DNA of 64,000 nucleotides from Sthenelais limicola (taxonomy: Eukaryota; Annelida; Polychaeta; Phyllodocida; Sigalionidae), in assembly GCA_942159475.1 (NCBI GenBank), contig OW804097.1, forward strand, positions 109,492,582 to 109,556,581, in the 5' to 3' direction. Positions 1 to 61,643 of the stretch are shown here, piece by piece. The notes under the pieces were generated by a model. The model was given only the letters and a program-made list of their open reading frames with translations. It was not told where the DNA came from and ran no database searches. The position numbers were made by a program, and so were the translations under genes. Numbering within the stretch: the first letter of the stretch is position 1; each line of letters starts with the position of its first letter.

Positions 1-2
1 TG

Positions 3-887
3 CTCCATAACATCAAAACAAAGAGAGCGTACAGAGTAAACAAGGTCAGAGGTAGCCACATCAAAATGGAATTCTATTCCACTCAAGATGCGATCAGCAC
101 ATATGATGCAAGACTCAAACTAAAACAACATGAAGATGACCCCACAGTAGGAAAGCTGTTCATCAAGAAGGACGTACCTCTCTTCCTTAGACAAAGAAAC
201 GCTAGGGCATCCAAAATAGCTAAGGCAGCTGTACATATGGGATATCCTGACGCGAAGGTAGCAAGAGGAAGTGTCTTACTCAATAGGTGGTATAGGCACA
301 ATGAGCTCTCAGCGGTGCCGACCCCTCTCCTCTTATCGCAACTAACAAAAGCTGAAAACGAGAAAGTCTTCATCTTCTACACCGAAGATAATCCATTATC
401 AAACCACCACTTTTCCCCCTTCACCCTGGAAAGCCACGCTTTTGATAATGTAGAACAGTATCTTTTCTACAAACGCGCTAAGATAGGACAGGATCCTGAA
501 AAGGCGAAGATGGCATTAACAACATACAACCCAAAGGATGCAAAATCCAACATGGCATCAGTGCTCAACCATAAAGATGAATGGATAAAACACCGCCCAG
601 AGTTCATCCTGTCTGCTCTGAGAGCTAAGGTCAGAGATAACGACACCATAGAAGACTATCTGGTCTACACAGGCAGCAAAAAGATTGGCGAAGCCTCACC
701 TAGGGATAAGGTGTGGGGTATTGGAATCCCAATGGACGACCCAAACGCTCTCGACGACACCCTATGGCCCCCCAAAGGCAACCTACTAGGAACATCCTGG
801 ATGGAAGTGAGAGAGGAAGTCAGAGTGAGGAGACTGAGAGAAATGCAAGAAGCTATGGATTACCAGGAGGAGAAAGAGGAAGGATAA
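3..887 (+). CDS. LINE ORF1: L1-ORF1p-like RNA-binding segment fused to a C-terminal NADAR domain (5' partial)
   Basis: The frame is open from base 3, so the protein probably begins upstream of the window; the first in-window ATG is at 66. Numbering from that ATG, residues 1-80 with the 21 upstream codons resemble the RRM/CTD end of L1 ORF1p: a basic strand, H-I-K-M-E-F-Y, then a basic helix L-R-Q-R-N-A-R-A. Residues 101-255 match the NADAR (YbiA/DUF1768) family in order: FIFY, PLSN..F.PF, VEQY with the family's conserved Glu at 130, EASPRDKVWGIG at 209-220, and GNLLG..WMEVREEV at 238-252. NADAR enzymes cleave N-glycosidic bonds in riboflavin intermediates and ADP-ribosyl-guanine. Close spacing to the RT ORF argues that this is the element's own ORF1 and not a host gene. 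Domain assignment is by motif reading only; activity is not shown. Confidence 0.85.
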   Translation, partial: LHNIKTKRAYRVNKVRGSHIKMEFYSTQDAISTYDARLKLKQHEDDPTVGKLFIKKDVPLFLRQRNARASKIAKAAVHMGYPDAKVARGSVLLNRWYRHNELSAVPTPLLLSQLTKAENEKVFIFYTEDNPLSNHHFSPFTLESHAFDNVEQYLFYKRAKIGQDPEKAKMALTTYNPKDAKSNMASVLNHKDEWIKHRPEFILSALRAKVRDNDTIEDYLVYTGSKKIGEASPRDKVWGIGIPMDDPNALDDTLWPPKGNLLGTSWMEVREEVRVRRLREMQEAMDYQEEKEEG

Positions 888-943
888 ATCGAGTGCAATG
901 ATCCAGTGTTAGTGTACAAGATCGAGTCCCACAATCTCTTAAA

Positions 944-3900
944 ATGGAGCAAAATACCAGCAATAAATCGACCCTAAGTGTAATCTCTTTTAATGTCAAA
1001 GGCCTAGCCGGAGACATAAAGAGAAGAGCCATCTTCGACAAGTTCAAAAGTGAAAATAATTTGATCCTGGCAGTACAGGAATCCCACTCAACAACACAGA
1101 AGGAATATTATGTGGGGCCTACAGTGGCCGGGGAAAATTCTTTTTTCCCATGGTACTAGTGCCGCCAGAGGTACCATGTTTCTAATAGCCAAAAATATTC
1201 AAAATAATATTATAAAACACAGTGAAGATGCAGAAGGAAGATGGCAATATATAATCATTAAAATAGGTCAAACTAAAACAGCCATATTTAACATATACGC
1301 CCACACTGCGAACAATCCGAAGGGACAAGCACAAACTCTTGAACAAGCTACGGCCTGTGTCAAGGACCTGGAGGTGGACAACCTCGTCATAGCTGGAGAC
1401 TTCAACACTGACATTACATATAAACCGCTTCAAAAGACCAGCGTCCAACTTAAAGACTTCATTAACGATTTAGACTTGTGTGACATCATTGATGTCAAAA
1501 ATGGTGGTACCCCACCGAAAACATGGTCGAACACCACGCAAGATTCAAGAATAGACTATATTCTCCTGTCAAATAATATTGTAAATTTGGTAACAAAACA
1601 TAAATGTGAGTCACATCCGTTGTCTGATCATAAGTTAGTTCGGGTAGAGCTACAACTTTTCTCTGAAAAACGTGGTAAAAGCTTCTGGAAATTTAACTCA
1701 AAACTTCTCGAAGACGAAAGTTTCATATCAGAGGTCGAAACATTAGCGTTTCGCACAAATGAAGAAAACTTATCTCCCATTCTCGTATGGGAAATTTTTA
1801 AAATGAAGGTGAGGCAGACCGCGATCAGAATTAGTTGTAGCACCGCCAGGGCAAAGAAAGTGGTCATTGAAAGTAAAAAGAAAAGACTCGATTATATTGA
1901 CAAGATAGTTACACTCTCTGAAACAGAAAGAGAAGAAAAAAGTAAACTGTTAGATTTCTTCGAAGAAGTAGAGTTAAACAACGCAAGGAGCGCCCTAGTT
2001 AGATCTAGAGCCAAGTGGGCAATGGAGGGCGAGAAACCCACCAAGTACTTTTGTTCCCTAGAAAAATTCCGCGCGGAAAAGAAAACAATTAATCAATTAG
2101 AAAAAAACGGTAAACTAATATCGGGAAAAGAAGAAATATTAAAGGAAGGAAAAGAGTTCTATCATAAACTATACGATGAATTTAATTCCGACCACCAGTC
2201 GGCCGAAGTGTTTCTAAAAGAAGAAAGCAAATACCTCTTGGATGAAGTCGATAATGACATTATCTCTTGTCCTTTTGAATATCACGAAATTACGAAGGTG
2301 GTAAAAAACTTAAAAAACAATAAGTCACCAGGGTGCGACGGCTTAACCTCAGAATTTTATGTTTTCTTTTGGTACGCCATCAATCGTATCTTTATGTCTA
2401 TGATGGAATATTGTTTGGAGACGGGGAAAATCTCAGAAACCCAAAATAGGGGAATAATCAGTGTCTTGCCCAAGAAGGATCAGGATTTAAACTTAATCCG
2501 AAATTGGAGGCCCATCACCCTCCTAAACGTTGATTATAAGATAATGTCAAAAGCAATCTCTACTCGCATTGAATTCTATCTACATGATATCATTAGCGAA
2601 GACCAATTTGGATTCGTTAAAAAAAGATATATCGGAACAGCTATTAGAAAAATCGACGACACCATATCATATTTAGAAAAACATAACCAGAAGGGCCTGG
2701 TGGTCTCATTCGACTTCACCAAGGCTTATGATTCCGTGAGCTGGTCCTTCTTGGACAAGGCACTGATGTCATTTAACATATGTGAAAAATACAGGTCCTG
2801 GATCAAAGTTTTGCTAGAAACCTCCCAAGCAACCTTTAGCAACAATGGATTTATATCCGACTGGTTCAACATTAAAAGAGGAGTCAAACAAGGGGACCCT
2901 ATCTCCTCCACATTGTTCACAATTGTCGTAGAAAAACTTACCCAATGTATCAAAAATGAAGAAAACATCAAAGGTATAAAATTCGGAGAAACTGAAACAA
3001 AAATTGTTCAATTCGCGGATGATCTAACTGTTACTTTAAGCGACGAGTTCTCCTTAGTGCAAACTGTAAGATTACTGGATAAATTCTATCTAGCATCAGG
3101 TCTTAAACTCAATCCCAATAAAACCAAAGGGTTCAACATAGGAGGTAATACTCTAACAAATAGAGAAATCCTTCAATTCTGTTGGGAAGACAGGATGAAG
3201 GTTCTAGGCGTAACATTATTTTACCCTAGAAACGAAAAACTTCTCACAAAGACCAACATAAACGACCTAATATTGAAGATGAAAAATGTCCTAAATGAGT
3301 GGAATAAGCGACCTCTTACCCTAAAAGGTAGAGTCCTAGTTGTGAATGTTTTCGTCCTCTCGCTGTTTCAGCACACCTTAGCCTGTGTAAATATTTCTAA
3401 AGATTGGCAAAAAAAAATAGACGACATCATAAACAAATTCATATGGAAAAGCTCATCAAATAAAATTAGTGAGGACTTCCTAGTCCAGAACACTGAAAAT
3501 GGTGGACTTAAACTTAGAAACATTAAGGAGGTAATAGAGACAAATAGAATCAAATGGATTCAAAGATTTTTGGAAGAAAAAAACAGAAAACACATGGCCG
3601 CAGTAGAGACAGAGTGTGGACGAAAGTATGTGGTAGAAACGAGTACGAGTGTGGTAGAAAGTATATTCCTCTCTAGAAGTAAACCATCAAGTCACCTTAA
3701 TGAGTTTTACAGAGATCTCTTTACCATATGGGACAAATATTATTATAAACACAAACCCATAAACGCGGCACAGATAAGAACAGAGAGACTGTGGTATAAC
3801 AGGCTTATAAAGCACAAAGGTCAAATGTTCTTATACCCCTCTTGGGAGGAAAAAGGAATATCTGTAGTAGGAGATATAATTAACCCAAATGGATCTCTGA

Positions 3901-4757
3901 TGTCCTTACTCGACTTAAAGAAAGAGTACAATGTAGACTCTCTGATCGTAACTAAAAATGATCTTGTAAAAGCCATACCCAAAGAATGGTGGCGTATATT
4001 AAAACAAGAGAGGAATCTCCCTGATGATGACTCTATTAACATAAACATAGGTGGTAGTCTCGTAGACGTAACTAAAGCGAATGCCAAAACTATTTATAGT
4101 GCATTAGTCTCTAAAAGAAAACCAAAATATTCAAAGATTCACAAATGGATCGAAATTTTGTCCTTAAATGAACAACAAGCGAAAGAGGTAAACTGGGGAA
4201 AAATTTTCTTAAGACCCTACAAAACTACATGTGAAACAAAACTCCAGGCCTTCCAATATAAAGTCCTACATAGAATTATAACATGTAACGAGGTTCTAAA
4301 AATTTACCAGATCATAGACTCCCCAGCATGTTCTTACTGTAAAAGCAGGGATAACATTACCCATTTCCTAGTCGAGTGCAATGAAACCAAGAAACTATGG
4401 AGAGAAGTTCTAACTCTAGCCACCTCAATGGGGCATCTAAATTCCTCCAGGAACGATAACCCCTTCTTTGAGACAAAAAATGGCAGATTAATCTTTGAAG
4501 CTAGTGATATTATCTTCGGAATACCCATACATGACATAAGCTCTAAAATAATGAATTGGATAATCCTAAATACCAAGTTCTTCATATACAAACAAAAACT
4601 CTTTCATGAAGGAAACATCTCACTAAAACACTTGGTCGCTGAGCTAGAAAGCAAATGTATTACAGTACTATATCAAAATAAAGTAACAAATCTGCAAAGA
4701 AAAGAAAGCAAAGCGTGGAAAAACTTCCATACAGACCTTAAAAGTCTGAAAGTGTAG
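944..4757 (+). CDS. LINE ORF2: APE endonuclease - reverse transcriptase - zinc-knuckle (one frameshift)
   Basis: The likely start is the ATG at 944, 56 bp after ORF1. The first part (944-1112) carries endonuclease motifs SFNVKGL and QESHS. The frame then shifts by one base near 1110-1115, and the rest reads in the frame open to 4757. Further motifs follow: GDFNTD near 1395 and SDHKLV near 1627 (endonuclease), NKSPGCDG near 2325, the RT-A aspartate motif FDFTKAYDS at 2709-2735, GVKQGDP near 2880, and FADD at 3012-3023. A C-x2-C...H...C knuckle lies at 4329-4379. About 1270 residues in all, normal for Tx1/L1 ORF2. The protein nicks target DNA and primes reverse transcription at the nick. The frameshift probably inactivates this copy unless it is a sequencing error in a T/G-rich stretch. 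Confidence 0.9.
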
Positions 4758-4969
4758 TATCAAACTCCTTACACACTAAAAGAGGACGAAAAAAAAAAAA
4801 ACCAAAAAAAACCCCAACAACTTGTCCAAAGGTATGTTTCTATGTCATAACACCTAATCAGATGAGAAGAGGGTACGTTGTAAAACTGTGTCACCGACCC
4901 CGAAAGATGAAGATGATCATTTGTTGACAGGCTGAATAAAAGTTTTTTAAAAAAAAAAAAAAAAAAAAA
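4758..4969 (+). terminator. LINE 3' UTR, polyadenylation signal and poly(A) tail
   Basis: Short 3' UTR containing an A-rich tract at 4788-4820. AATAAA lies at 4935-4940, and an uninterrupted poly(A) runs 4949-4969. A tail this long and clean suggests recent insertion. Confidence 0.8.
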
Positions 4970-5800
4970 TGTTTATTATCAAGGTGTTAGTAGTATAATG
5001 TTATACCTAGCTCTGACTGGCTTAGAAGGCGAGACTCTTTATAATATTATACTAAAGCTTACAGAGACGCCATACAGAGGTGTGGGTTTCTCATTACAAG
5101 TGACCCCGCTCCCTCTATATAGAGGGTATTGATAAAGACAAAGGGATGCCTGGCCAGCAACGTGACTGTTCACGTTCATTAATCATTAACCCACAGTGTT
5201 ACTCAATGGACACGTATTAACATGATTAAAGCCTATATTTTGGTATTATTAATAATAGAATTATTATAATAGTTACGCATGCTACAACATTGTGTAATAT
5301 AATATCCCCTCCTTATTGAGAAATGTCTCCCCGTAAATGTAAGACAGAAACATTTTAATTAATATTAGAAGAGCGTTGTAGCATTAAGAATAAAAATATG
5401 ACAGTGACAATAGTACCCTGTAATATTACATAATTATTAATAGTTACGTAATAATTATAATAATGAAAAACGGTAATTAAAAGTTTGATATCATAGATCA
5501 CACTAGTATGTGTATGTATGTATAGTGTTAATTTCCAGTTTCAACATAATTAAGTACAGATAAAGATAATAATAACAATAATTCTGGAAATGGGTCTCCC
5601 TTTCTATGGTAGCCTTAGCTCTTCCAAGGGGTCCCTTGTACATTAGTTAATTAATTACAATAAGTTTCCATGTAAAGTATACATATTCAGTGACATTAGA
5701 GTTAGGTAAATTATTGTAGGGACATTTCCCTATGGTTTTATATAATAAAGTTGTTGTATTACATTTGTTGTTCACTATCTTATTTTCTAGGACCCTCAGT
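4970..5800. other. AT-rich intergenic DNA
   Basis: No coding sequence recognised. The stretch is AT-rich with short TATG/ATAT microsatellite-like runs (for example near 5510-5525). I see no gene, RNA gene or terminal repeat in it. Confidence 0.6.
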
Positions 5801-6080
5801 AGGTGGTTGCATTCTAACGAACACTTCACGTACTTTGGGTTATTTGTGTCCGTGGATGGTTCAGCGGAGTCTCAGTTGAGACTACGCTTTCACATCCTTC
5901 TGTTGTACATATATATATATATATGTTGGACCACAATGGTAAATCAATTGCAATACAGTAACACAACGTAAGCGGTAGACGGTTTGCATTCTGAAGAACA
6001 CTCTTGTCCACCGCTTATTTTGCCACTGGTCTACATACGGGTTGGAGGCATTCTGACGAACACTCACCGCTGCGTATGTA
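5801..6080. repeat. Three hairpins with different stems and a common loop sequence
   Basis: A loop core close to GCATTCTGACGAACACTC occurs near 5809, 5986 and 6048. Each copy is enclosed by its own inverted repeat: AGTAGGTG/CACGTACT, then AGCGGTAGAC/GTCCACCGCT, then CTACATACG/CGTATGTAG at 6031-6039 and 6072-6080. Stem sequences differ while pairing is kept, with single mismatches in the first two. That is the pattern expected of a structured RNA or a DNA hairpin under selection. The block lies just beyond the 3' end of the antisense LINE at 6201-7763 and may be part of its 3' UTR. Function unknown. Confidence 0.55.
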
Positions 6081-6200
6081 GTCCGCGGGCAATTGCTATA
6101 TCAGCTATCTTCAAGATGTTCTTAAGTGTTAGATAGTACGTTGGCGAGGGAAAGGGGAAAGGTGGTAGTCGTCGTTATAAGTTTTCAATGGGGATAGCCT

Positions 6201-7763
6201 CTATTGTTGATGCAATTGAGGTCGTGGCGGCAGTTCTTGGGCCCCTTCTCTCTGGGTTCCAGAATAGGAATAATATTCCGCTTCTAGGAATATTTTAAAT
6301 TTGTCTATCGTGGACCAATTTCTTCCTTTTACTGGTAATTTATTAAAGAGGGTCAGGGCTTGTACCATGAAGGATCTCCGTATTCTCTCAATTTTTGTCT
6401 TAGGGATTTTCAATGTTTTGCCATTTGCCAAGTTTCTTAGATTTAGATTTAGACCTCTCTGATCTATATACTCCTCGCTACAGCTCATTCTGAATGCTAG
6501 GCCCAGGAGGTGGGATTCTCTCCTTTCATCTAGAAATGGGATGTTGTTTGCTTTGTGTTGTTCTCTAACACTATCTCTTTTCCCTAAACCATATGCTATT
6601 CTAAGGAATGAGTTCTGAATGGTCTGAAGCTTTTCTGTTAATTTTTTCTGAGCTGGAGCATAGAATACATCACAGAAGTCCATCACTGGGCGCACCATCG
6701 TTGTATAGACAAGTATGGTATTTTTTGTGTTCAGTGATTTCCTAATTTTGGCTGTGGCTCGTAATCTTTTAGTAATTTGGTTTATTTTCCCTTGGACATG
6801 CTTATTGAATGTGAGTGTTTGGTCTATAAGTAGGCCAAGATAGCAGTATTCGTCAGCATAGTCCAGATTTGCAGAATTCAGGTTCAACTCAATATGGTTT
6901 GTGGTGGGCTTTTTGTTATTTGTTTTCAAAACGATGTCCATTACTTGGCTCTTTTTGGTGTTTATTGAGATTTTATTGGCCTTGCACCACATTCCAACCA
7001 TATTTAGGTCATTCTGTAATTCCTCCTTAAGGTTGTTATCGAGGGGGTGGGAGTGATATAATACGGTGTCGTCGGCAAATAGTTGGATTTGTGATTTGCC
7101 TATGACTCGATGGAGATCATTCACGTATAGTAAAAAGAGAAGTGGTCCAAGTACTGTTCCCTGGGGGACACCGCACTTGACCTCTTGCATCTCTGAGTAT
7201 TTCCCATTCGTTCTAACCTGTTGGTAGCGGTCCGAAAGGTAATGTTCTATCCAATTTATTATTGGAAATGATAGCCGAAATGATTTTAGTTTTTCGAGTA
7301 ATATCTCATGATTAACGGTATTGAAGGCTTTCTTGAAATCAAGATACACAATCGAGACGTGTTCATTATCGCATTTCTTTCCGTAGATAAACTCAAACAA
7401 TCTTTGGTGTGCCTGTTCCAGGGAGTGGGCAGCTCTAAACCAATACTGGAAATCATACAAAAGATTGTTTTCTTCCAGATGGGGGTAAATGACTCCGTGT
7501 ACTACCCTTTCTAAGATTTTTGCTGGTAGTTTTACCAGGCTGACAGGGCGGTAGTTTGAGGGGTCAGATACTGGCCCTGATTTGTGTATGGGGGCTACTA
7601 TTGCCTGTTTAAAGTCCTGTGGAACTTTGGACGTTCTCAGGGAGACGTTACATAAGTGAGTGAATTGATGCGATAAGGTCATATATATCGGCTTTAGAAC
7701 TCTTGTCGGTAATAGGGGGATACCAGAGGATTTCGATGTAATGTTATGTAATGATTTTGTAAA
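6201..7763 (-). CDS. Jockey/CR1-group LINE reverse transcriptase, 5'-truncated
   Basis: An open frame of about 520 codons covering RT and the C-terminus. The annotated ATG is at 7682, but homologous sequence (T-S-K-S-S-G-I-P, RT motif 1) continues upstream in frame to a stop at 7764-7766, so the ATG is not a true start. Motifs in order: APIHKSG, NYRPVSLVKLPAKILE, YLDFKKAFNTVNH (RT-A), GVPQGTVLGPLLFLLYVNDL (RT-B), LFADDTVLYHS (catalytic FADD) and YLGLLID. The C-terminal 200 residues are the usual basic, Trp/Leu-rich region of this group. The endonuclease half is missing, as expected from 5' truncation during target-primed reverse transcription. The frame is otherwise intact. It belongs to the same broad clade as the copies at 37435 and 41045. 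Confidence 0.88.
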   Translation of the reverse strand, partial: FTKSLHNITSKSSGIPLLPTRVLKPIYMTLSHQFTHLCNVSLRTSKVPQDFKQAIVAPIHKSGPVSDPSNYRPVSLVKLPAKILERVVHGVIYPHLEENNLLYDFQYWFRAAHSLEQAHQRLFEFIYGKKCDNEHVSIVYLDFKKAFNTVNHEILLEKLKSFRLSFPIINWIEHYLSDRYQQVRTNGKYSEMQEVKCGVPQGTVLGPLLFLLYVNDLHRVIGKSQIQLFADDTVLYHSHPLDNNLKEELQNDLNMVGMWCKANKISINTKKSQVMDIVLKTNNKKPTTNHIELNLNSANLDYADEYCYLGLLIDQTLTFNKHVQGKINQITKRLRATAKIRKSLNTKNTILVYTTMVRPVMDFCDVFYAPAQKKLTEKLQTIQNSFLRIAYGLGKRDSVREQHKANNIPFLDERRESHLLGLAFRMSCSEEYIDQRGLNLNLRNLANGKTLKIPKTKIERIRRSFMVQALTLFNKLPVKGRNWSTIDKFKIFLEAEYYSYSGTQREGAQELPPRPQLHQQ

Positions 7764-13960: not shown

Positions 13961-15073
13961 TTAAATAAGATTAGAAGCGACGACGGCTTCTAATTCAACC
14001 CTGCGATCTGGGGAAATTGATAAGTACTCCAGGGCTACGAGAGAACGCCAGTCACCCAGCATCTTGATATCGGCCAAGGAGAAGCCTAACTCATGCAAGT
14101 AGGAGGCCCCTGATCGGCGAAGGGAGTGAAATGAATAGTCAGAAGTCGGAAGACCGATGGCAGTGACAAGTTTCTTCAGGTACAATGAGACCTCCGAATA
14201 GACAATCGGACAAGGTCGACCATTGTGGTTGGACATGAAGACAGGGGACGATGACGAAGGAAACTCTTGAATATTCCATTCCATGAGAGACACCACACAT
14301 AGGGGAGAAGATGGAATCCTTTTGATGGGTATCAGTAGAGGACGGCCACCAAACTGGCGTGTCTTGGAGGAAGAAACTGACAAAATCACACCCCACTCGG
14401 AGAATGAAAGATCAGCACGAGTTAACACATGAGGAGGGATGAAACTAGTCGAATCAGGGACGATGTTGGACTTTCTCAATAGCGATCTGAAAGAGAGCAA
14501 GATTACTCCCCACATGGCACGACAATGATTATCTAAAACATTGACGTGGAGATACATCATCCGGAACTGAGTAATGGTGATAGGTCTGGCCTGTTTAACC
14601 AGGGTGCCTAGGGCTCTCTTAATTCCTTGTAGAATCATCTTGAGGTAGAAGGAACTCCGAAACTCAGGAGAATAGCCATAGCATTTATGTAACACAACTA
14701 CGGACGATAAGTAATTCTCGATCGTTGAATATTTGCAGTCTCTAGCCAGGTAAGTTAGAAACCGGCCGACAGTCTCCACAGAAGCTGGTACAGGGATTGT
14801 TTGAATCAGGTTACAGAAGGAGAAGTACCTCTTCCACTGAGACTTGCGAGTCAGATTAGTATTCAGCGACCACGCCCCTCTGACATAGGAGTTCATTTCT
14901 TCATCCAAGTCTTGGCGTAGCACATCTGCAACAACATAAGCCAGATTCAGAAAGAGCGTACTGGGGAAAGGAATGAAGTCTGGACAATACATCGGGAAGA
15001 ACATTACAGACCCCCGGAATATGTGAAGACAGTAAATGAAAATTGCAGAGGGCCGAGCACCAGAACATGTCAC
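13961..15073 (-). CDS. Tyrosine recombinase of the Ngaro/PAT-like element
   Basis: 370 codons. The catalytic set of the tyrosine recombinase family can be read in order: Arg in SLLRKSN, Lys in SSSKTRQFG, H-x-x-R in FHSLRRSGAS, Trp in LGDWRS, and the Tyr nucleophile in ALEYLSI. The N-terminal half contains the SAM-like core-binding segment (W..Y..FC....P.....VGRFLTYLA). It joins a circular cDNA to the chromosome. The ORF overlaps the RT-RNase H ORF by 173 bp in another frame. The first 40-55 residues up to LDEEMNSYV look unlike a recombinase and may not be used, with an internal start or translational coupling instead. All catalytic residues are present, so the enzyme may be active. Confidence 0.88.
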   Translation of the reverse strand: MTCSGARPSAIFIYCLHIFRGSVMFFPMYCPDFIPFPSTLFLNLAYVVADVLRQDLDEEMNSYVRGAWSLNTNLTRKSQWKRYFSFCNLIQTIPVPASVETVGRFLTYLARDCKYSTIENYLSSVVVLHKCYGYSPEFRSSFYLKMILQGIKRALGTLVKQARPITITQFRMMYLHVNVLDNHCRAMWGVILLSFRSLLRKSNIVPDSTSFIPPHVLTRADLSFSEWGVILSVSSSKTRQFGGRPLLIPIKRIPSSPLCVVSLMEWNIQEFPSSSSPVFMSNHNGRPCPIVYSEVSLYLKKLVTAIGLPTSDYSFHSLRRSGASYLHELGFSLADIKMLGDWRSLVALEYLSISPDRRVELEAVVASNLI

Positions 15074-16838
15074 GCAGTAAGTCCATGCAAAAAGGGTTTG
15101 AGCTGCGACCAGAACGAATCATCGCCACAACTTGAGTATTGTCAGACAAACAGGTGATTTTACTGCCTGACCACTCTGGCCCAAACCGATGGCAAGCTAG
15201 CCAGATAGGTAAGAGCTCTAAATAGTTAATGTTGAACGTGGGGGGACACAGGTTGATCCAGTGATGATGAGTTGAATCGACCGAAAGCACTTGATGAGGG
15301 GGAGCGGCAGAAAGAAACCCACCGGCAACCCAGTCTCCCGACCAAGTAAGGCCGAAACCAGTCGACGATGCATCAGAATGAAGGCTGAAGAACTCGCGAT
15401 AATGATGTCGAATCATGCAAGCCTTTCCGTTGAAGTAATGAGCATATTGAACCCACCACATCACATCAGATCTGAATTGATGGCCCAATTTAATGCGACG
15501 ACGACAAGGCTTAGAAACTTTCAAGAGATCCATTATTCTCCTGGAAAAGGTTCTACCGCCTTTGACGAGTTTAGAAGCGTGAGACAAGATCCCACACAAT
15601 CTCTGTAGTTGATGGAGTGTAGCACGAGAGCGGTGTTTGAAGAAGTCTAATTCCTGATGAAGACGAGCGACTTTCTCATCAGGTAGAGACATTGACATTT
15701 CAGCAGTATTGAAAGTGATTCCCAAATAGCGGCAAGACTTGGACGGTGAAGAACACTTGGACCAAGAAACTTCGAAGCCTAGCTGGCCCAGTAGAGAGAC
15801 CAGTTGTGATTGTGTATCCTGACAAGAGGCGAACGAATCACCCCAACAAAAGAAATCGTCGAGGTAGTTAATGATATTTGGAAAGCCTCTCCTGCACATG
15901 CAACTGACGACAAAGTCACTAATAACAGTAAAAATAAATGGAGCGCACTTTAACCCGAAGCATAAGCGCGTGTCCATCAAGGTGCGAGGAACTCCATCTA
16001 CAATCCAACGCAGACCTTGAAACTGCCAATCATTAGGGTGCACTGAGATAGATCTGTAAGCCGCCTTAATGTCTACACACGACATATAATCACCAGGTGA
16101 AAGAACGGAAGAGACAAGATCCACATGTTTATAGGTGAATGGTTGGGCAGTAACATTCATGAAGTTGTTAATCGAGTAGGAAGTAGGCCTACTGCAATCA
16201 GTGATTGGACGGTATTTTCCTCCCTGTTTGGGAACTGCGCCGATGGCGTGTACACATCTCGGAGTATTCCATGAAGTAAACACAAACTTGTCTTCCTTTA
16301 GCTCTTGACAAATCAGATCGGATATAAATGAAAAAGCTGGGCCAGATGTAGCGGAAGCATAGTTGTCACAAGCATAGTGAGGTACATTAGCATCGGTATC
16401 CACGATGCGAAAACCATTGCTAATACCATCAAACAGGAATGATGATAGCACCTTGTCCTCCTCAAACTGCAGTTCATGCAGCCATCCGGCCAAATTCATT
16501 TGTGAAAAGGCCGAACCAATTTTGTGTCTGGACGAAGCACGGGAGAGCAGAGGTAAACAATAGTAGGCTGGAGCCAAACCCGGCGACACAAGATCGGGCG
16601 ATACAGCTGTAGATAAAGAACTATCCTGAATAACGTCACCAGAATGAGAGTCAAACAAGACAAACTCATTAGTAGAAGAATCCGGGGTTATATGAGAAAC
16701 AGAAGCATCTGAAACTGTAGTAGTAGGCACAAATTCATTGTCGAGGGACGGTAAAACGGGTCGATGACCACCATCTTGGTTTAGACCGGAAGTATCATGA
16801 CGTGTTATTGCTTGTCTGCAGAGTCCGCTTTCCTGCAA
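14901..16838 (-). CDS. Reverse transcriptase - RNase H of the Ngaro/PAT-like element
   Basis: 645 codons. RT motifs: GGKYRPITDCSRP, CVDIKAAYRSISVHP (first Asp), LCFGLKCAPFIFT, NYLDDFFCWG (YLDD active site near 15864-15875) and CRYLGITF. RNase H follows: LHSDASSTGFG (Asp), INYLELLPIWLA (Glu), CLSDNTQVVAMI (Asp), then VLPDVLSRL. It copies element RNA and degrades the template. It overlaps gag by 34 bp upstream and the recombinase by 173 bp downstream in different frames, so expression probably relies on frameshifting or reinitiation. No stops interrupt it. Confidence 0.9.
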   Translation of the reverse strand: MQESGLCRQAITRHDTSGLNQDGGHRPVLPSLDNEFVPTTTVSDASVSHITPDSSTNEFVLFDSHSGDVIQDSSLSTAVSPDLVSPGLAPAYYCLPLLSRASSRHKIGSAFSQMNLAGWLHELQFEEDKVLSSFLFDGISNGFRIVDTDANVPHYACDNYASATSGPAFSFISDLICQELKEDKFVFTSWNTPRCVHAIGAVPKQGGKYRPITDCSRPTSYSINNFMNVTAQPFTYKHVDLVSSVLSPGDYMSCVDIKAAYRSISVHPNDWQFQGLRWIVDGVPRTLMDTRLCFGLKCAPFIFTVISDFVVSCMCRRGFPNIINYLDDFFCWGDSFASCQDTQSQLVSLLGQLGFEVSWSKCSSPSKSCRYLGITFNTAEMSMSLPDEKVARLHQELDFFKHRSRATLHQLQRLCGILSHASKLVKGGRTFSRRIMDLLKVSKPCRRRIKLGHQFRSDVMWWVQYAHYFNGKACMIRHHYREFFSLHSDASSTGFGLTWSGDWVAGGFLSAAPPHQVLSVDSTHHHWINLCPPTFNINYLELLPIWLACHRFGPEWSGSKITCLSDNTQVVAMIRSGRSSNPFCMDLLRDMFWCSALCNFHLLSSHIPGVCNVLPDVLSRLHSFPQYALSESGLCCCRCATPRLG

Positions 16839-18019
16839 AACCCCACCTTGTGCGATTTGGATTTACATGTACCGCAAACATGGGAACGGGAACAAGCTCC
16901 CGTGCAGACTCCATAATTGAACTTGAAACAAACATCATCAGGCCAGTCCGAAGGAATCACTAATTTACCATCAGAAGAGCGTTTAAGCGTAGATCCGGAC
17001 TTTGTTTTGTTCACATTTCTTGCTTTCGACTCGTTTGCAGACGTGAAATGTGTAGCTATTGACAAGGCACTTCGGGGAGTGAAACCGACTGCAGGATTTC
17101 GTAAATAGCAGTCCACCACTTCCCTATCATAGCTGGTGTAAGCAGAATTTATATATGACTTGCCAATAGAAAGGTTGAGCATGTTCTGAAAGTGACACAA
17201 ATAACTACGCCAGTCCCCACCAGAGCTGATAAGGTGTTCTAGGACCAGCGACATGCCGTAAAGATACTCCTGCAGGGACATCTTGGACGGTTCCGCAGAT
17301 TTGAGGGGCATACCCTTCACAAGCACTAAGTATTGATACTCTGGACGAAGGGGAATACCTTGTTGTCTGGTGACTGATGGATCGATGCTAACCGATAGTT
17401 GGCTCATTGAAGTAGCCATGGCGAGCATGGCGGCAGCAGCTGGATCAGCAGAAGAAGCCGTAGTAGGTGTGCCAGTCGTCGAGACGGGAGCAGGGCTGAC
17501 AAAGCCGGCAGGAGCCAACCCCGGCGGGTTGACAGTAGATGATGACAGCATCGGCTGGATAGCTGTCAGGGGCCCTGGTACACCGTGTAGGGCAGGTAGA
17601 CTCTGACTCAGGGCCGGTGGTTGTTGCTGACCAAAGGACGCAGCGATCCGAGGGGACTTAGGTTGTAGAGGAGTAACAGGTAACTTCCCACGTTCCATAG
17701 AAGAGACTCTATCCATCAGAGATGTAATAGTGACTTTGTCGGCCGCCTGACTGGACAAGACCGAAGAGAGCTGTTGTTGTGTAGTAGACGCCATTGCCAA
17801 TAGCTTTGACAAGACATCGGTGGTACCTGCGGAGATATCTACAGAGGCCGAAATGTCAAGATCATCGACATCGTCCTCGATTTTACCGTCCAGGTAAGTC
17901 TTCCAATTAGATTCATCATCACCTTGAGTAACACATCGCTGAATAGCTTCTTTTTTGAATCGACAAGAAGAAGATCCAGGATGCTTGTGGGATAAACCAC
18001 AGGCGTTGCAGAGACCCAT
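16805..18019 (-). CDS. Gag-like zinc-knuckle protein of the Ngaro/PAT-like element
   Basis: About 404 codons from the ATG at 18019. An upstream in-frame ATG at 18052 lies within terminal repeat A1, so I prefer the later start. It opens with a Cys/His cluster (LCNACGLSHKHPGSSSC). A coiled-coil-like and Pro/Ser/Ala-rich middle follows, then a helical central domain (LRPEYQYLVLVKGMPLK) and a C-terminal Cys/His cluster (CFKFNYGVCTGACSRSHVCG then CKSKSHKVGFC). The layout suits a nucleocapsid-type protein that packages element RNA. The position upstream of RT and the terminal Cys/His motifs support gag; the sequence itself is not strongly conserved. Confidence 0.75.
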   Translation of the reverse strand: MGLCNACGLSHKHPGSSSCRFKKEAIQRCVTQGDDESNWKTYLDGKIEDDVDDLDISASVDISAGTTDVLSKLLAMASTTQQQLSSVLSSQAADKVTITSLMDRVSSMERGKLPVTPLQPKSPRIAASFGQQQPPALSQSLPALHGVPGPLTAIQPMLSSSTVNPPGLAPAGFVSPAPVSTTGTPTTASSADPAAAAMLAMATSMSQLSVSIDPSVTRQQGIPLRPEYQYLVLVKGMPLKSAEPSKMSLQEYLYGMSLVLEHLISSGGDWRSYLCHFQNMLNLSIGKSYINSAYTSYDREVVDCYLRNPAVGFTPRSALSIATHFTSANESKARNVNKTKSGSTLKRSSDGKLVIPSDWPDDVCFKFNYGVCTGACSRSHVCGTCKSKSHKVGFCRKADSADKQ

Positions 18020-18030
18020 TGCAAATACAC

Positions 18031-18197
18031 AAAAAATCTCAGGCAGAAACACAACTGTCCACTGCGTAGGTCAGCATTAGAGTGAGCGTCTGTTGCACTG
18101 GCGGGAGTCGTCCTAGCAACCAGTCCATTCAGGTGTCCAGCAACAGAATATAGTCCATCATAATATAATCATATATACAAGTATATATTAACCATAT
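18031..18197 (-). repeat. A1 terminal repeat of the Ngaro/PAT-like element
   Basis: 167 bp apparently identical to 13689-13855. It forms the 5' end of the element, so it probably carries the promoter. It ends in TTAACCATAT at 18197, next to unrelated sequence. Confidence 0.85.
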
Positions 18198-20707
18198 AGC
18201 ATTTCACCCAACAAGACTTCGGTATCGACATGGGTGTGGTTTCCCTATATACCATTGTTGTCTCATCCCATCTGATATCTGTATTGAAATGTGCAGAACA
18301 CTTCTGAGCTGGGACATATTGCATCAAATATGCAACTCGAGATATTCAATAAGGCCTCTGTTATTTTGAAATAAGAATAAATGTGGAGACTTTCTGTGCC
18401 AAAGCTAACAATGGTGGTGATTCAAATATTATATTGAAAGTATGAATCTTTATTTTACTTATTTATTAAATATTTATTTTATGATCACTTCTTTTTACGA
18501 GGGAAGAGAAAACACCAATTATGGCAGAAATGGCTCAATTATTTCGAGATTTATTACCATAAAATCTCGAAATAATAATTGGGACTTGGGTGTTGCACTT
18601 ATGGCTCCATAACGTCTGTGGACCTAAAAGTGACCATGGACCACTTTACTGACCTTTAAGGCTCATAGCATGGACACTTATAAATGTGGTTTTCTACCCT
18701 TCAACAATGGGTATACTTTCGATTATATGATTATGTTTCATTATTGATGTAAGCATGACAACCAAATATGGATACTTATGCCCCAGTCTCTTTGGTAAAT
18801 CATCAATCAGGCAACATTTTGAGCTGTATTTGCCACTTTGTCTTTCATGCGTGCCTTCAGTGAAAGACATGCACCAAAAGCCACTTGCATTCTGTCGTCG
18901 CATATGCAGCTCTCGTTTCTTAATACTTTATTTGTATGTTATCTTACATCTTTATCACAATGAATCACTACATGTATATGACTTTAAAGATGAAAATACT
19001 TGCCAAGAAAAGGCAATGTTGATCGTTGATTCTAGAAAAATGTTCAAGACTGTTCATTATGACCTAAGGGATCATGAATTAAAAACTAGGCGGAATCTTA
19101 GGTTTCTTCTCCAACCAACAATGAAAATGTATAGAAATCTACAGTTGATTCAATTTATCTGATGAAAGAGGTTAAAAGAAGGCGGGGTCACCCTTAGTAC
19201 TACCGGAGTAGTTCTTCATTGTCCAAAGTTGTTCAAAGAACTACTTGATCTCAACGTTGCATAGATCAACAATTGCGAACATATTTAAGTCAGTTACAAG
19301 CTCAGGTGTCACGAGTCTTGTCATAAAAACTTGTATAATGGTCTATTTGAGTCATCAATTTCTGAAAAATCTTTTGAACGGTCTTTTTCCGTCTTGCCAC
19401 CCTGTGGATCACACTTCAATAAATAAAAAAATCCAAAAGGGGGAATTGGGTTCAAAATGCATTTGGTGAAAACATGTTTAGCAATTGACCTATGCATATC
19501 ACATAAATACCCATAATTTGACTGTGTGTGGTGTGTAACTTTTATAAAACGGAGAATACTACCAACTATGCTTATTTTTATGGCCTAGGCCAGATTGATG
19601 AATATATTTTATAATGAAGAGATAAGTGAGATCTGTGCTCAAAACTCCTTTTTAAATCACGGCTAGCAGCTACAACGTGTGCACCAGGGTAATAAGATTT
19701 TCTTTCTGACTTCAATCTCTAAAAAAGAAATCAGGGTTACAAAGTAGAAGGTTTTTTCCTAAACCGAAAATAGCCATTCCACGTAAGTGAGGCTTGATTT
19801 TGATAATTCTGCTAAAGCATAGATCTATTTCTTTTGGAATTAACTAAATCTGGACTATATATAACTAGCAGTTGGATGTAGCCTTGGGAAGGCAAATAGC
19901 CATCGATAGAACTTTCCCATTAGAGTTGTGTTTCATCTTAATCCCTTAATCACTAACATTATTTGTTTGTCAATGAATTCACCAACACAGTTGTAGCAGT
20001 TGCCTGATTAGCCTGAGGCTGCCGAACAAGGATCAGGTTTGCACTTTTTTGTCAGTTTCTAGGTGTTAAATGGTTTCAGGGACGTTGTGGGCTAATAACT
20101 TTCCATTTTATCTAAATATACATACATAATATATCTTCCCTCCACAAACAAACTAAATGCAATTTAATATCAAATGTTACTCTTGGGGTAACGGAGACAC
20201 AAATATTCCAAAACAATATTTTCCATTTTTAGATCAGTTTAAGTTAGTGATTACATAGATATTGCGTTTTTTTATAATAATGAACATGTGTGCATGTGTA
20301 GAAACCATTTCTTTCAGCAGAAGTGATATATTTTCTTATTTATTAATGTATATGAAATGGTTTGTCTTAATGCAACCCATAACAAATCTCATGAATTAAA
20401 TCTGCTTTCACAGTTCTCTCAGAGTTGATTATGTGGGAAAAGATGAGTAAGACTGAGCGATAATAAGTGATGCCACAATATTGAAAGATTTTGAGATACA
20501 TCAACATGTATATAGCTCTTCTCTAAGAACAACCGGGGGTATGCTAAAGTTTGGGTCAAATGAATTTTAGATGGAAAGGAATAGAAAGTAACAAACAGTA
20601 AAAATCCTTTTCTGATCGTTTTTAGCTGAGCACACATGGTTAAGTAAAGAAGAACAACATTAAGAAGGCAAGTTGTCAATAGTAGCAATGCTCTTTTTCT
20701 TTCTCCA
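18198..20707. other. Intergenic DNA upstream of the receptor gene
   Basis: No gene recognised. It holds a hairpin at about 18545-18590 (ATTTCGAGATTTTA and its complement). A block at about 18585-18670 recurs at 56745-56830. A 44-bp segment at 18998-19041 recurs inverted at about 21800-21846 in the receptor's first intron. The open frame at 18755-19162 has no family resemblance and is AT-rich; not called. Confidence 0.55.
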
Positions 20708-20723
20708 GAACTTCAATAGAAGG

Positions 20724-22960
20724 ATGGATGTGGAAATCACAACAGCCTTTGTGACATCAAGCCGAACACCAATGAACACCACCTTCTCTGGCAATAAACC
20801 AGAGGTATACACCCATGATCCTCCCTTGGCGGGATTCCCTGGCAAGCTCTTTTATATACTTCATTTTGTGGCCATAGCAAGCCTTTCAATTTCCATCATC
20901 TCTAGTGTCACTGTCTTTGTAATTCAGCGACCTAGATGTCCATCCTTTTACCAACGGACTCTAGGAGAACGTCTATCTGTCTATCTAGCTCTTGGAGATC
21001 TCTTCTTCAGTGTTAGTCATATCATTGACCATTCAGCCATGCTGGTTCTGGTGGATAATCCCTCTAATATTCCTTGTAGGATCATGGGGTTTTTTGTCAC
21101 CATGTTCATGTTTGTGCAGATATGCATGGTTTGTTTCATTGGACTCAATGGATTTATTCTTGTGGTAAAAGAAACCAAACTAAGTCTTGGAAGGTATGAT
21201 TGGCGATTCTTTGCAGGCACAATTCTTTTTCCTTTCAGCCTGCATGTGCCGCTTGTGGCTTTGGGTATTAATGGACCCAGTGGAGCTTGGTAAGTTTGGA
21301 ATAATAAGAATATTTGTCAAGATGAATTTGATGATCCTTTTGGATTTTGACCATTATTATTATTTAACACGAGTATCTTTGAAAGGTCACAGTGGTCACA
21401 ATCATGAAATATCTGATTGCAACAACACTAACAACAATCGATTTTGTTGAGTCAACTTAGGAAATAAATGTGATTAAAATGATATATGATTAAAAACTGT
21501 AATGAATTAATGGATATCAATATTACGCACTACTATTGCATGATATACTTTGGTATTTAGTAGAACTTATTCTACCAGTTATAACTTAAAATTTAGTTAA
21601 TTTGACACACTGTCCAGGCGACGAGGCTGACAATTACATTAAACCTGTCCCTGGAAGGCATTACAGTATATAATTTCTTGCTGGTACATTGTGCCCTTTT
21701 ATCCACAAAAAGTTAGCAGTCATTACAGTGTAAGGTCTAAGCAAAACGTTAAAAAGGACTCTATACATCTTAATGCCATGAACTGATAAATGAACATGGA
21801 CACATTTCTCTAGAATCAACAATCAACATTGCCTTTTCTTGGCAAATGAACATGACCAATTCTTATGATTGGCAAATCAACATTGCCATTTTTTATGATC
21901 AACAAGTCAATACATGCTTTTTCTTATTAGTGGCACAAGAAATGTGACCCCTGCCCCCATTACAAGCTGTTTCGCTTACAGGCTTCAGAGTTAGTTTCAT
22001 ATATCCATGTTTTATCAAAACATTGTGATATGTTTCTAATACATGTACATTTCTAATACTAATATCTCTAATTCTTTTTTTAATATATTTTGTTTTCTTC
22101 ACATCATAGGTGTTTCTATGATGTGAGGACTCAGGCAGGGAGGCTGGCAGGTATGACACTCTCCATCATACAGATCTCTGTCACTGTTATCATACTCATC
22201 AGTTATGTTGGCATTTTCATCAAGATCCACCGGGTGTCCTCTGCAACAGAAGCAATGGGTGGGACATCTGGAGGCGCAGACAGGTACCAGGTAGCAAGGG
22301 TCATGATGAACTTTGTTGGTAAGTTTGTTTCTATTGGGAATATATATTTGCAGTATTCCATGCCAGGATTCCATGCCTCTCTGTGTTCTCAGTTTTAGCT
22401 GCAAGTTGACCAGGGCAACATCGGTAATTAAATATTGATGACAAATCATTACACTTTTATATTGGATGTCCTTCATTTCCTGGAAAGCTGTTCTTCAGTT
22501 TGTAATGGTTTTATCTTGTCATTTCATCTATTTAACCCATGATTCCTAGATACCTGGTTTAGAACTTTGTTTCTGAGCAAAATCTTAAACCCTGAATACA
22601 TTTTAATAGCAAAATTTTAAACCCTGAATACATTTTAATATCAAATGACCTGGTTTAGAATTTTGTTTCTGAGCAAAATCTTAAACCATGAATACATTTT
22701 AATATCAAATGAAAGTACAACTATGCAATCTGTATGTTTCAGCTGCCTACTTCATCCAGTACTTTGCACTGGCCACCTACTCACTCTGGGCCATGTTTGC
22801 AGTGCCCCCATTTGAGCTAGTCCTTATGGTGGTGTCCTTCACCAACTGTGGTGGCTTGTTCAACCTCATCGTCTACACCCTGCTGAGACGCACTGGGAAG
22901 AAGAATCAGAGGCCAAAGAGTGATAGCACTAACACCTCTTTAACTTCAGTTTCGAAATAA
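20724..22960 (+). CDS. Seven-transmembrane receptor, three coding exons (20724-21289, 22110-22318, 22743-22960)
   Basis: Spliced length 993 nt, 330 residues. Donors GTAAGT at 21290 and 22319 and acceptors AG at 22109 and 22742 give a continuous frame (phases 2 and 1). A polypyrimidine tract and CAG at 20707 suggest an upstream non-coding exon; start ATG at 20724. Seven hydrophobic segments are readable: FYILHFVAIASLSISIISS, LSVYLALGDLFFSVSHIID, IMGFFVTMFMFVQICMVCF, FFAGTILFPFSLHVPLVAL, LSIIQISVTVIILISYVGI, VAAYFIQYFALATYSLWAM, and LMVVSFTNCGGLFNLIVYT. Cys at the start of TM3 and in the second extracellular loop (AWCFYD) could form the usual disulfide. There is no DRY or NPxxY. The WCFY loop and TM2 LGD recall cAMP-receptor-like/Git3-type receptors, but family assignment is uncertain. 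The N-terminus has NTT and the tail is Ser/Thr-rich. Ligand unknown. Confidence 0.85.
21290..22109 (+). other. Intron 1 of the 7TM receptor gene
   Basis: 820 bp, GTAAGT donor and a TTTTGTTTTCTTCACATCATAG acceptor region. It contains tandem variants of ATCAACATTGCC near 21818-21895 and the inverted relative of the 18998-19041 segment, so repeats have accumulated in it. Confidence 0.8.
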
Positions 22961-37236: not shown

Positions 37237-37434
37237 GCAACGCCTGCTTGGCTGTGAAATAGAGACTAAAAGGTGGCAAGATTTTGCTCGAGCTTTTATA
37301 CTTTCTGAAAGTGAGCAGTGCTAACCAGATGACGACAGCGCCACCTGCATTTAGTGATTGGACCGCCCACTACTGGTTTTTGACATTGGAATGTTAATAT
37401 CTTTAATACTTACCCTCTTGGTTACTGAAAAAGA

Positions 37435-39201
37435 TCTTAATCATACTAGCAGTACAATTGGTCGAAATAATTAATTTAACTTATACTGAAAGCTCGATCC
37501 CTCAAGAATGGAAACGATCAAAAGTAACCCCACTATACAAGGCTGGCCCCATGACAAATCCAAGTAATTACAGACCAGTCTCCTCCATTCCCATGCCTGC
37601 AAAACTATTAGAGAAATCTATGCACAAACAAGTTATATATTATCTGGAGAACAACAACCTCCTATTTGACGGTCAGTACGGTTTTAGACAGGGTCGCTCG
37701 ACTAAAGACGCCCTCATAAATTACTTAATGGAAATATATAACAACATGAATGAAAATAAAGTCTCTAGGGCAGCCTACCTCGACTTCAGAAAAGCTTTCG
37801 ATACAGTAAACCATTCAAGACTCTTGGAAAAACTAGAAATTATAGGTATAAGAAACAAAGAACTGGAATGGTTCAAAAATTACCTATCCCACCGATACCA
37901 ATCAGTAGAAGTAAATAAAACAAAATCAAGTCTAAATCCAATAACTTGCGGGGTGCCACAAGGCACAACTTTAGGCCCATTATTGTTTACAATATACATA
38001 AATGACATGCCAAAATTTATCCAAAACTCAAATATCCAATTGTTCGCTGATGACACCATAATATTTGCAAAAGGCACGGATGTCCTAGAAGCTACAAACC
38101 TGCTTCAACAGGATCTAAATGCCCTAATATACTGGTGTAAGAATAATATGATATCAATTAATTACGACAAATCCAAAATCCAAACATTCTTTGCAAGGCA
38201 GAACCTGAGGTCGAGGTGGGCTGTGAGTGGACAACCCCACTCAGAGAATCTCATTCTGAATCTGGATGGAAATCCCATGGAAGAAGTTGAATCTTATGAA
38301 TATCTCGGAGTAGATATCGACAGAAATCTTAAATTCAAATCAGTAGTAAGTAAACTAATAAGCTCCATGAATTATAAATGCTGGCAACTAACAAAACTTA
38401 AAGGGAAAATACCACAAGACACTTTGTTACTCATATATAAGGTTATGGTATTGCCCCTGATTGACCAATCTGATATTTTTCATGATTCCCACACAACATC
38501 AGGGACTAACCGACTTCAAATAATTCAAAATAAAATACTCCGCAGAATCTATGGGCTTCCAACCAGAGCAAATGTTGATGAAATTCATGTTAACAAAAAC
38601 CTACTGACATTAAAACACAGAAGAAGGTTGCATGTTTTGCAGGCGGGCCATGGTCTGGCGAGCAATCCAAAATATATTGATATTAGACGATTAAACACCA
38701 GAAATTTTGCTGTAGGTAGGAAACCATTGAAACAAATCCTTCCCATAAATGAGCAATTAAGAAAATCAATCCTCCACAGAATCCCATATACATGGAATTC
38801 GCTTCAGACCATGGCCCATGGGGTACCAGATAAGAAATTGTTTAAATCACTAGCGAAGAAAACTCTGATATGGTCAGACCAACACTTCATTGAATAGCAT
38901 ACTCATTGTCCAATTGACTTAATTAGGCACTAAGCCTTAGTACAAATCATGTTCAACAGTATTGAGGTAAATTTTTATATAAGTTCTAATGCGCCTTTTC
39001 AAAAAACTTCAACAACAGTAAAATCCTATTTAATTGCTTATAACAGTGCGCTCCTTTCGTCAATGACGACTGGAGTATTGTGTACTGTTAGGAGAATATG
39101 TAAAAAAACAGGAAAAGTGTGATCCTCCCTTTGCTGGAGATATGCTTCCTGAAAGCGATAAGTCGAAAAATAAATGTATCTTAATCTTAATCTTAATCTT
39201 A
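37435..39201 (+). CDS. Jockey/CR1-group LINE reverse transcriptase, 5'-truncated, with TTAATC tail
   Basis: The open frame runs from about 37435 to the stop at 38897; translation from 37458 gives 479 residues. There is no true ATG start because the 5' half is missing. Motifs: PQEWKRSKVTPLYKAG, NYRPVSSIPMPAKLLEK, AYLDFRKAFDTVNH (RT-A), GVPQGTTLGPLLFTIYIND (RT-B), LFADDTIIFA (active site), YLGVDIDRNL, then a C-terminus with VLPLIDQSDI. The 3' UTR (38898-39201) has AATAAA near 39168 and ends in three to four TTAATC units. The RT frame is uninterrupted. Its truncated 5' end faces that of the LINE at 36271-37236. Confidence 0.88.
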
Positions 39202-43089: not shown

Positions 43090-44207
43090 GAGGTGAATGT
43101 ACCACAGCCTGCTACTATGACATATCCAAAGCTTTCAACAGTATTGACCATCGAGTTCTTAGACGAAAATTATCTTTTTATCAGATTCATCCTTAATTGA
43201 TCAGGATTATAGAGAATTACCTTCAAAACAGACAACAACAAACGGTACTGAATGGATTTATCTCTGATACAAAATTGATAAATAGAGGTGTGCCCCAAGG
43301 GAGTCACCTGGGACCCTTAATTTTTCTTATATACATTAACGATCTCCCCTCATGTATAGATACTGTTGATCACGGAAATAATGACCTAAATATCTCACTT
43401 TACGCAGATGATACTGCCTTAACAGTAACGGGTCCTAATCTAGACGACTGTCTAACCATATGTCAAAACGCAGCCTCAACAATAAATAATTGGATGAAGG
43501 CGAATGGCCTTTTACTGAATGGGAAGAAATCCCAGCTTCAAATTATTGGCACAAGAGCATCTCTAAAAAAGATCAATTTCAACCAACTAAGAAAGATCTA
43601 TATAAACGGTTCTGAAATTACAAACAGTAAGACAGTAAGATACTTAGGGTTCAAAATAGATCGACTGATAAGCATGAATGATCATATGAACAAACTGAAA
43701 ATCTCAGTATTATACAAAATGACTCAATTTAGAAAAATCAGGGGCTATATTACAATCAAGATGGCGCGTAAAATATTAAAAACGCACATCCTATCTATTC
43801 TTGAATATGGTGTAGTCTTTCTGAGTATGGCAAATGCCAATATCAAAAATAAACTTAAGAGGCTTCTCATAAGGGCCATCAAACTTGTTTATAAGAATGA
43901 TCCTAGAAACATAGACGAACTAAAAATTGATTGTAACATCAACTCTCTAGAAAAAAGGGGTAAAATTGCCTTACTAGGTATCATGTTCCAAAAGAAAAAT
44001 GATCCTCTTTATTGTCAAAACATGCCAAGAGAGACCAGGCTTGCTGATGGGCAGGTCTTAAAAATCCACAGGCCAAATAGGGAAAAATTTAGGCAGACCC
44101 CCCACTTTATTGGTCCTACCCTATGGAACAACCTTCCAGCAAATTATCGAAAATTAGACTGGAAAACCCTGAAAATATCTTTGAAGGCCAATAACGATCT
44201 GATATAG
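43090..44207 (+). pseudogene. LINE reverse transcriptase fragment with one nonsense codon
   Basis: RT homology starts in frame near 43093 (YYDISKAFNSIDHRVL, RT-A), meets a TAA at 43194-43196, and continues for 336 codons. Further motifs: IIENYLQNRQQQT, GVPQGSHLGPLIFLIYIND (RT-B), LYADDTALTVTG (YADD active site), YLGFKIDRL, then ILSILEYGVVFLS and TLWNNLPANYR. The upstream RT motifs and endonuclease are missing. The YADD box and sequence differ from the FADD copies, so it belongs to another LINE family. The stop and truncation make it inactive. Confidence 0.82.
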
Positions 44208-61549: not shown

Positions 61550-61643
61550 ATGATTCTTGACCTGTAGTTGATTAATGCAGGTGAGTGGATGTGATAGTGG
61601 AGAGCAGATGCAGCCGTGGAAAGGAGATGTATGCCATTATGAT

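Follow-up and report, generated by a model that had tools for sequence, protein, structure and literature searches.

The closest described relatives of the system studied here are in oysters: NADAR domains give divergent matches to the proteins of open reading frame 1 (ORF1) of several Tx1 families of long interspersed nuclear elements (LINEs) in Crassostrea gigas (PMC12477816, Genome Biology 2025). Among the papers listed by our searches of the open-licence literature, we found no further report of a LINE-borne NADAR. The domain from Phytophthora takes ADP-ribose off guanine in DNA; among marks on nucleic acids, guanine-linked ADP-ribose is the one that NADARs have been shown to act on (PMC11543638). 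Here, we analyzed a 64,000-nucleotide stretch of the genome of the polychaete Sthenelais limicola (C4:109492582-109556581, "the window"), which begins inside a LINE whose ORF1 carries a NADAR. The original prediction, made from the sequence of the window, knew of no described LINE lineage with this arrangement; given the oyster report, it is instead a known kind, if barely, noted once in passing. Judging from sequence comparisons, it is very probable that the NADAR is an integral, selected, and probably catalytic domain of ORF1.

The frame at positions 3-887 (+) of the window has 294 codons without a stop, and six-frame reading of 500 dinucleotide-shuffled versions of bases 1-900 gave stop-free runs of up to 202 codons. 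Residues 127-274 of the frame match the Pfam NADAR model (PF08719) over positions 4-163 of 163 (E = 1.5e-23, 84.3 bits, cut-off 35.1). This full-profile match bears out the central claim of the prediction, a NADAR domain in an open frame upstream of an ORF with APE and reverse transcriptase (RT) domains, and the C-terminal domain of ORF1 is predicted to have the NADAR fold. Two details needed correction. First, the frame is open as described, but position 3 is the edge of the window and not a start: ORF1 begins upstream, in a frame of 532 amino acids whose first methionine is codon 21, and its C-terminal 294 residues are inside the window. Second, the APE-RT ORF does lie downstream, but ORF2 is not intact in this copy. 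(It is split between a long frame at 1065-4757 and the APE N-terminus in another frame at 902-1159; the ATG of the ORF2 frame, on the same strand as ORF1, is at 944.)

In Pfam, ORF2 matches RVT_1 (137.7 bits) and, above their cut-offs, two APE models and zf-RVT (CCHC spacing judged by eye). Its closest solved relative is human L1 ORF2p (8sxt, E = 1.1e-74). The hallmarks of an L1-superfamily LINE are present: two ORFs, APE and RT with a C-terminal zinc-type motif, poly(A), and target-site duplications (a 16-nt string is common to both ends of the window copy, or 14 nt excluding adjoining A's). The full element is about 6.9 kb, from about 360 to 7267 of the window copy's locus (L032), as bounded by pairwise alignment with five close copies (L033-L037).

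From the window alone, we could not exclude that the NADAR belongs to a host gene hit by a LINE insertion, or was captured by chance in one copy, as ORF1 extends past the window edge. The rest of the genome refutes this. We searched 1.13 Gb in 161 contigs. (These searches score the best candidates only, and weaker kin are outside their reach.) With ORF1 as the query, 133 of 4,366 candidates were scored, and each of these is a match (44-100% identity, E <= 2.4e-75); they are dispersed over contigs C1-C9, and 118 have no in-frame stop. We took 20 loci from both strands, chosen to sample the whole range of identities. ORF2 sequence lies downstream on the same strand in all 20 (L043 has only its first part, and in L050 it is interrupted by a nested element that brings an RT frame of its own), and in 8 the ORF2 frame runs intact for 1,264-1,275 amino acids. 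Boundaries could be set for 13 loci, the window copy included; in 10 of these, a 10-16 nt string is common to both ends of the element and lies outside ORF1 and ORF2 (some strings include up to three adjoining A's, and the count carries no chance control). Direct repeats were unclear in L038, L039, and L041. The dispersal of the copies and the direct repeats outside ORF1 both tell against a host gene.

The spacing between the NADAR and the RT also argues against a host gene. A search with the RT scored 137 of 11,896 candidates, and ORF1-NADAR lies 1.4-1.8 kb upstream on the same strand for 68 of them (6 more have it at other distances of up to 12 kb). The ORF2 frame has at least 1,260 amino acids in 51 of the 137 (counted by eye), and 41 of these belong to the 68. 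For the remaining 10, we inspected 601 bases at the place where ORF1 is expected and found NADAR sequence in 7 (complete in one frame in L058, L060, and L061; cut by the end of the stretch in L062; split between frames in L056 and L057; the second half only in L054). Thus, NADAR sequence is at the same place in 48 of the 51 long-ORF2 copies; the prediction had named its absence from full-length copies as grounds for rejection, and that is not what we see. Some copies do not fit as well: 63 of the 137 RT matches have no listed ORF1 upstream (53 of these 63 have ORF2 frames below 1,260 amino acids), and L055, L059, and L063 have no NADAR, ORF1, or ORF2 protein match in the 601 bases inspected. 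We tentatively read these last three as 5' truncations or insertions.

Base composition and selection agree with this picture. The AT skew is +0.27 for the NADAR part and +0.19 to +0.23 for three parts of ORF2, as compared to −0.03 for the downstream flank and −0.17 and −0.04 for two reading frames elsewhere in the window that resemble G-protein-coupled receptors (GPCRs). A skew as strong as that of the NADAR part was found in 1.2% of 586 background stretches. This A-rich strand bias, shared by ORF1 and ORF2, agrees with a LINE origin of ORF1 and not with a host gene. Also, the NADAR is under purifying selection: in eight pairs of related copies (with shared members), the ratio of nonsynonymous to synonymous changes per site is 0.04-0.14 (P = 1.6e-4 to 5e-16, Fisher's exact test). 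For the middle part of ORF1, the ratio in related-copy pairs is 0.06-0.14. Between subfamilies, synonymous sites are saturated in all three parts in 12 of 17 pairs, so we claim no ratio there.

The active site is largely conserved. The NADAR of Phytophthora contacts ADP-ribose with E43, K50, R79, W89, R93, E125, D130, and W133 (PMC11543638), which correspond by alignment, with a fitted numbering offset, to residues 151, 158, 185, 194, 198, 230, 235, and 238 of the window's frame. The window copy keeps seven of the eight, with K50 as R. E151, W194, R198, and E230 are present in all 20 loci, among 37 domain positions that are invariant there, and the first, second, and last of these are also invariant in 100 of 100 aligned database NADARs. 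W238 is kept in 19 loci (C in the other). The place of E125 is Glu in the YbiA subfamily, Asp in BC4488, and His in phage types (PMC11543638); the Glu in 20 of 20 loci is the YbiA-subfamily state. The other places vary: residue 158 (K50) is R in 15 loci and K in 5; residue 185 (R79) is A, S, or G in 17 and R or K in 3; and residue 235 (D130) is D in 17 and N in 3 (L049-L051). With its catalytic glutamates kept in an integral and selected domain, the LINE does carry a NADAR of its own, as had been predicted.

One alternative is that the domain truly belongs to ORF1 but is a structural relic, a ligand-free module for folding or multimerizing. The drift of the R79 place, and of the D130 place in some lineages, would fit this, as would the lack of any biochemical data on a LINE NADAR in our literature search. 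But the four invariant residues have been kept in all 20 loci even though identity to the window's NADAR domain falls to 48-50% in the most distant family members, and we consider a relic very improbable.

Another alternative is that the NADAR binds ADP-ribose, for example on modified protein or RNA at sites of DNA damage or stress, as a tether or targeting module that does not need catalysis. The seven contacts kept in the window copy, with R for K50, would suit a binding module, and so would N in place of D130 in 3 of the 20 loci; also, a NADAR protein, SNA-3, works in a trans-splicing complex (PMC9303266). In contrast, neither of the glutamates coordinating the distal ribose varies, either in our 20 loci or in the 100 database NADARs, as expected if cleavage matters. 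Binding alone could also preserve those two glutamates. We view a binding role as rather unlikely but not far-fetched.

Where did the domain come from? A protein search with the whole 294 residues gave 920 candidates, none at E <= 1e-3. With the NADAR domain alone there was one match, and with an alignment there were 1,366, of which we took the best 120. Among these 120, four proteins (P0024, P0036, P0049, and P0056; source code lgn, on contigs of 2.8-4.5 kb) have a part ahead of the NADAR that resembles the ORF1 middle part: a profile of the four aligns collinearly with the LINE ORF1 middle (hhalign E = 2.1e-12, probability 97.7), with identities to that of the window copy of 21% for P0024 and 23% for P0049. 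These appear to be ORF1-NADAR-like proteins, known here without an ORF2 behind them. We then built a tree of 108 NADARs with a midpoint root: 13 of the 20 LINE loci (near-copies excluded), the four ORF1-like proteins, and 91 others of at most 190 amino acids (25 longer matches and YbiA are left out). The LINE NADARs form one clade (support 100/98), and together with the four proteins, P0021, and P0027 they form a clade (99/100) apart from the other 89. This fits a single capture by the window's lineage, and the tree supports one origin for that lineage. Scans of viral contigs found no relative of the LINE ORF1, and tblastn of ORF1 against 60 plasmid and 649 phage records gave only NADARs of below 60% identity, none covering more than 80% of the query.

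The same genome has a second set of NADARs. A genome search with PF08719 scored 150 of 5,561 candidates, all above the cut-off, and none is within 1.2 kb of the 133 ORF1 matches. This is therefore a separate set, for at least 283 matching places in all. Its members score higher and lie in frames of 162-827 amino acids (median 617, with 89 of the 150 at 570-680; examples are C6:73358056-73358493, L053, and L064). L052 and L053 have a tail of 155-158 amino acids beyond the NADAR and no ORF2 match in the 1.2 kb after it. For one of these two loci, the upstream part (L064) gives a weak ORF1-middle match (hmmsearch, 20.0 bits, E = 2.7e-8 for a single target); with hhalign, it matches the profile of the four database proteins at E = 6.7e-7 but that of the window's lineage at only 0.054. 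Its NADAR keeps E151, W194, E230, D235, and W238 and has S at the place of R198. The second set may represent a different LINE family, one with a long spacer, or some other type of element; a LINE context is only hinted at. In a quick tree, L064 falls outside the window's clade (it has a long branch and its place is unsure), so one origin may not hold for all copies: there may have been a second capture, or fast divergence. The mechanism proposed below does not rest on a single origin of all copies, so its standing is unaffected. Three NADAR matches in 162-residue frames on contig C1 (94855254-94855679, 89380390-89380815, and 66983187-66983612) may be free-standing genes or cut-off copies, perhaps not LINE ORF1s.

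What might the NADAR do for the LINE? In L1-type LINEs, the ORF1 protein (ORF1p) forms a coat on the element RNA. The ORF1p described here (basic N-terminus, presumed coiled coil, and presumed RNA-binding middle) is expected to do likewise, and a YbiA-type NADAR that was captured as its C-terminal domain, in an L1/Tx1-type lineage, would by analogy with other LINEs ride the ribonucleoprotein (RNP) beside ORF2p. We propose that it is an active N-glycosidase that hydrolyzes ADP-ribose, or a similar N-linked ribosyl mark, from guanine of the element RNA or the nascent cDNA. Removing the mark would allow the template to be copied in a host that modifies foreign nucleic acid. This is perhaps the simplest function for a conserved N-glycosidase on ORF1p. 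As a whole, an RNP-borne de-ADP-ribosylating enzyme that acts on element nucleic acid is the best explanation we have, which we offer tentatively, as slightly short of an even bet.

Several points weigh against this proposal. K50 is R in 15 of the 20 loci, which matches K95R in the NADAR of E. coli C7; this change retained activity in vitro but abolished the rescue of cells from DarT1 (PMC11543638), which tells against an antitoxin-like role. The place of R79 has drifted to A, S, or G in 17 loci and that of D130 to N in 3. For NADARs encoded outside of DarT1 operons, the same paper says that no physiological substrate is known; YbiA has riboflavin intermediates as its substrates. Location in the RNP is suggested by other LINEs, and a host enzyme that would lay the mark is only presumed in this genome. 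A rival reading is an active N-glycosidase that acts on small molecules (damaged nucleotides, riboflavin-like intermediates, or free ADP-ribose derivatives or signals) and not on the element's nucleic acid, which we consider unlikely but a serious competitor.

A more specific form of our proposal is that the LINE-encoded enzyme clears ADP-ribose from the N2 of guanine in LINE RNA or cDNA, put there by a host enzyme akin to CARP-1 or pierisin, and that the spread of the lineage to hundreds of copies or more reflects this advantage. CARP-1 of a clam puts ADP-ribose on guanine N2, the same activity is found in various shellfish, and these enzymes are proposed to be immune factors (PMC8053099, PMC11543638); for CARP-1, a role in defence from DNA viruses or in regulating NAD has been suggested (PMC8053099). 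That NADARs act on what CARP-1 makes is an assumption in PMC11543638, and the link from shellfish CARP-1 to this LINE would be by analogy with the oyster elements. We consider this specific form doubtful. The counter-defence role suggested in the prediction is likewise a hypothesis, as is the substrate. If the specific form is true, animal and retrotransposon would be engaged in an arms race over ADP-ribosylation. For the opponent of a CARP-1-type enzyme in such a contest, a NADAR that is under selection in a LINE of many copies is an obvious candidate. The LINE NADAR also makes two questions testable: what accessory ORF1 domains contribute to a LINE, and whether ADP-ribose serves animals as a tag on foreign DNA or RNA.

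Table 1. Features of the LINE insertion in the window (window coordinates)
Feature	Position	Strand	Remark
LINE insertion, 3' part	1..4969	+	5' end near 360 of L032, ~1,940 bases before the window begins
ORF1, C-terminal 294 of 532 residues	3..887	+	
ORF1 middle part, at the position of the L1-type RRM/CTD	3..362	+	tentative assignment, from motif and position
NADAR domain, YbiA subfamily	381..824	+	assigned to the subfamily from E230
Start of ORF2, APE N-terminus	944..1159	+	frame broken within ~1065-1160 in the window copy
Remainder of ORF2: APE endonuclease, reverse transcriptase, C-terminal zf-RVT	1065..4757	+	Pfam; human L1 ORF2p (8sxt)
3' untranslated region with AATAAA motif and poly(A) tail of ~21	4758..4969	+	sequence
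Target-site duplication, right copy	4970..4983	+	left copy upstream of the window

The rest of ORF1 is less clear than the NADAR (Table 1). The N-terminus is basic and precedes a heptad-type stretch: in residues 91-210, 0 of 500 shuffles had a periodicity as strong, and for residues 131-210 alone, 9 of 500 did. The middle part is in the place of the RNA recognition motif and C-terminal domain (RRM/CTD) of L1-type ORF1 proteins, and we tentatively name it so from motif and position; neither Pfam nor the Protein Data Bank (PDB) supports the name: Pfam gave a single row for it, far under the cut-off, and a PDB search with the single sequence gave no match. PDB profile rows for this part, chiefly PCNA, are unsupported and were rejected. 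We also regard the sub-cut-off Pfam rows in ORF1 proteins (GvpL_GvpF, Pfc11_Rna14-15-ID, RMC1_N, and others) as chance matches, and we discarded a single-sequence structure model of ORF1 (pLDDT, the predicted local distance difference test, of 36.5). At the 5' ends, a start like (AC)TTCCGGT is common to L032-L037, L041, and L044-L047, including subfamilies whose ORF1s are down to ~52-61% identical to the window's; it is perhaps a conserved promoter element.

Elsewhere in the window, three frames in a row at 13961-18070 (−), namely a phage-integrase-like frame (26.4 bits, just under the cut-off), an RT frame, and a frame without a Pfam match, look like a tyrosine-recombinase retroelement of the DIRS/Ngaro type. 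(A look-alike of one of these frames is nested in ORF2 of L050.) Four further RVT_1 frames, at 6201-7763 (−), 37407-38897 (+), 41045-42439 (−), and 43197-44207 (+), apparently belong to other non-LTR elements (those that lack long terminal repeats, LTRs). The GPCR-like frames are of the rhodopsin type, at 20664-21293 (+), below the cut-off, and at 60374-61636 (−), with nearly the whole 7tm_1 profile. Searches of the window for tRNAs and with Rfam gave no match.

Among known systems, the Tx1 LINEs of C. gigas (Repbase families, PMC12477816) are the nearest: they too have a NADAR in ORF1 of an L1/Tx1-group LINE, and the architecture is apparently the same. The passages of that brief report that concern them do not include analyses of copy number, selection, active site, or origin, which we provide here. 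A retrotransposon of Ectocarpus also carries a YbiA-type NADAR, but it is an LTR element with the domain in Pol, and its NADARs are reported to have blastp matches outside of Ectocarpus that are almost only bacterial; it presumably represents a separate capture. Unlike the LINE NADAR, the DarTG1 antitoxin and the NADAR of Phytophthora nicotianae (PDB 8bat and 8bau; PMC11543638) are apparently not on mobile elements, and the DarTG1 type has Asp where the YbiA type and the window's NADAR have Glu. The NADARs in polyproteins of positive-strand RNA viruses (PMC9503650; BFVD, nidovirus replicases) are similar in that an element that copies its own genome has its own NADAR, and by similar reasoning they were proposed to remove host ADP-ribosylation (PMC9503650). 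They differ in their replicase context, and the model-to-model match is weaker (E ~1.5e-4 for yellow head virus). The esterase in ORF1 of some LINEs (PMC3905857, PMC4120745) is also an enzymatic ORF1 domain, but is unrelated to NADAR. Relative to these systems, what is new here is the evidence that a LINE NADAR is integral, multi-copy, and selected, with its catalytic residues.
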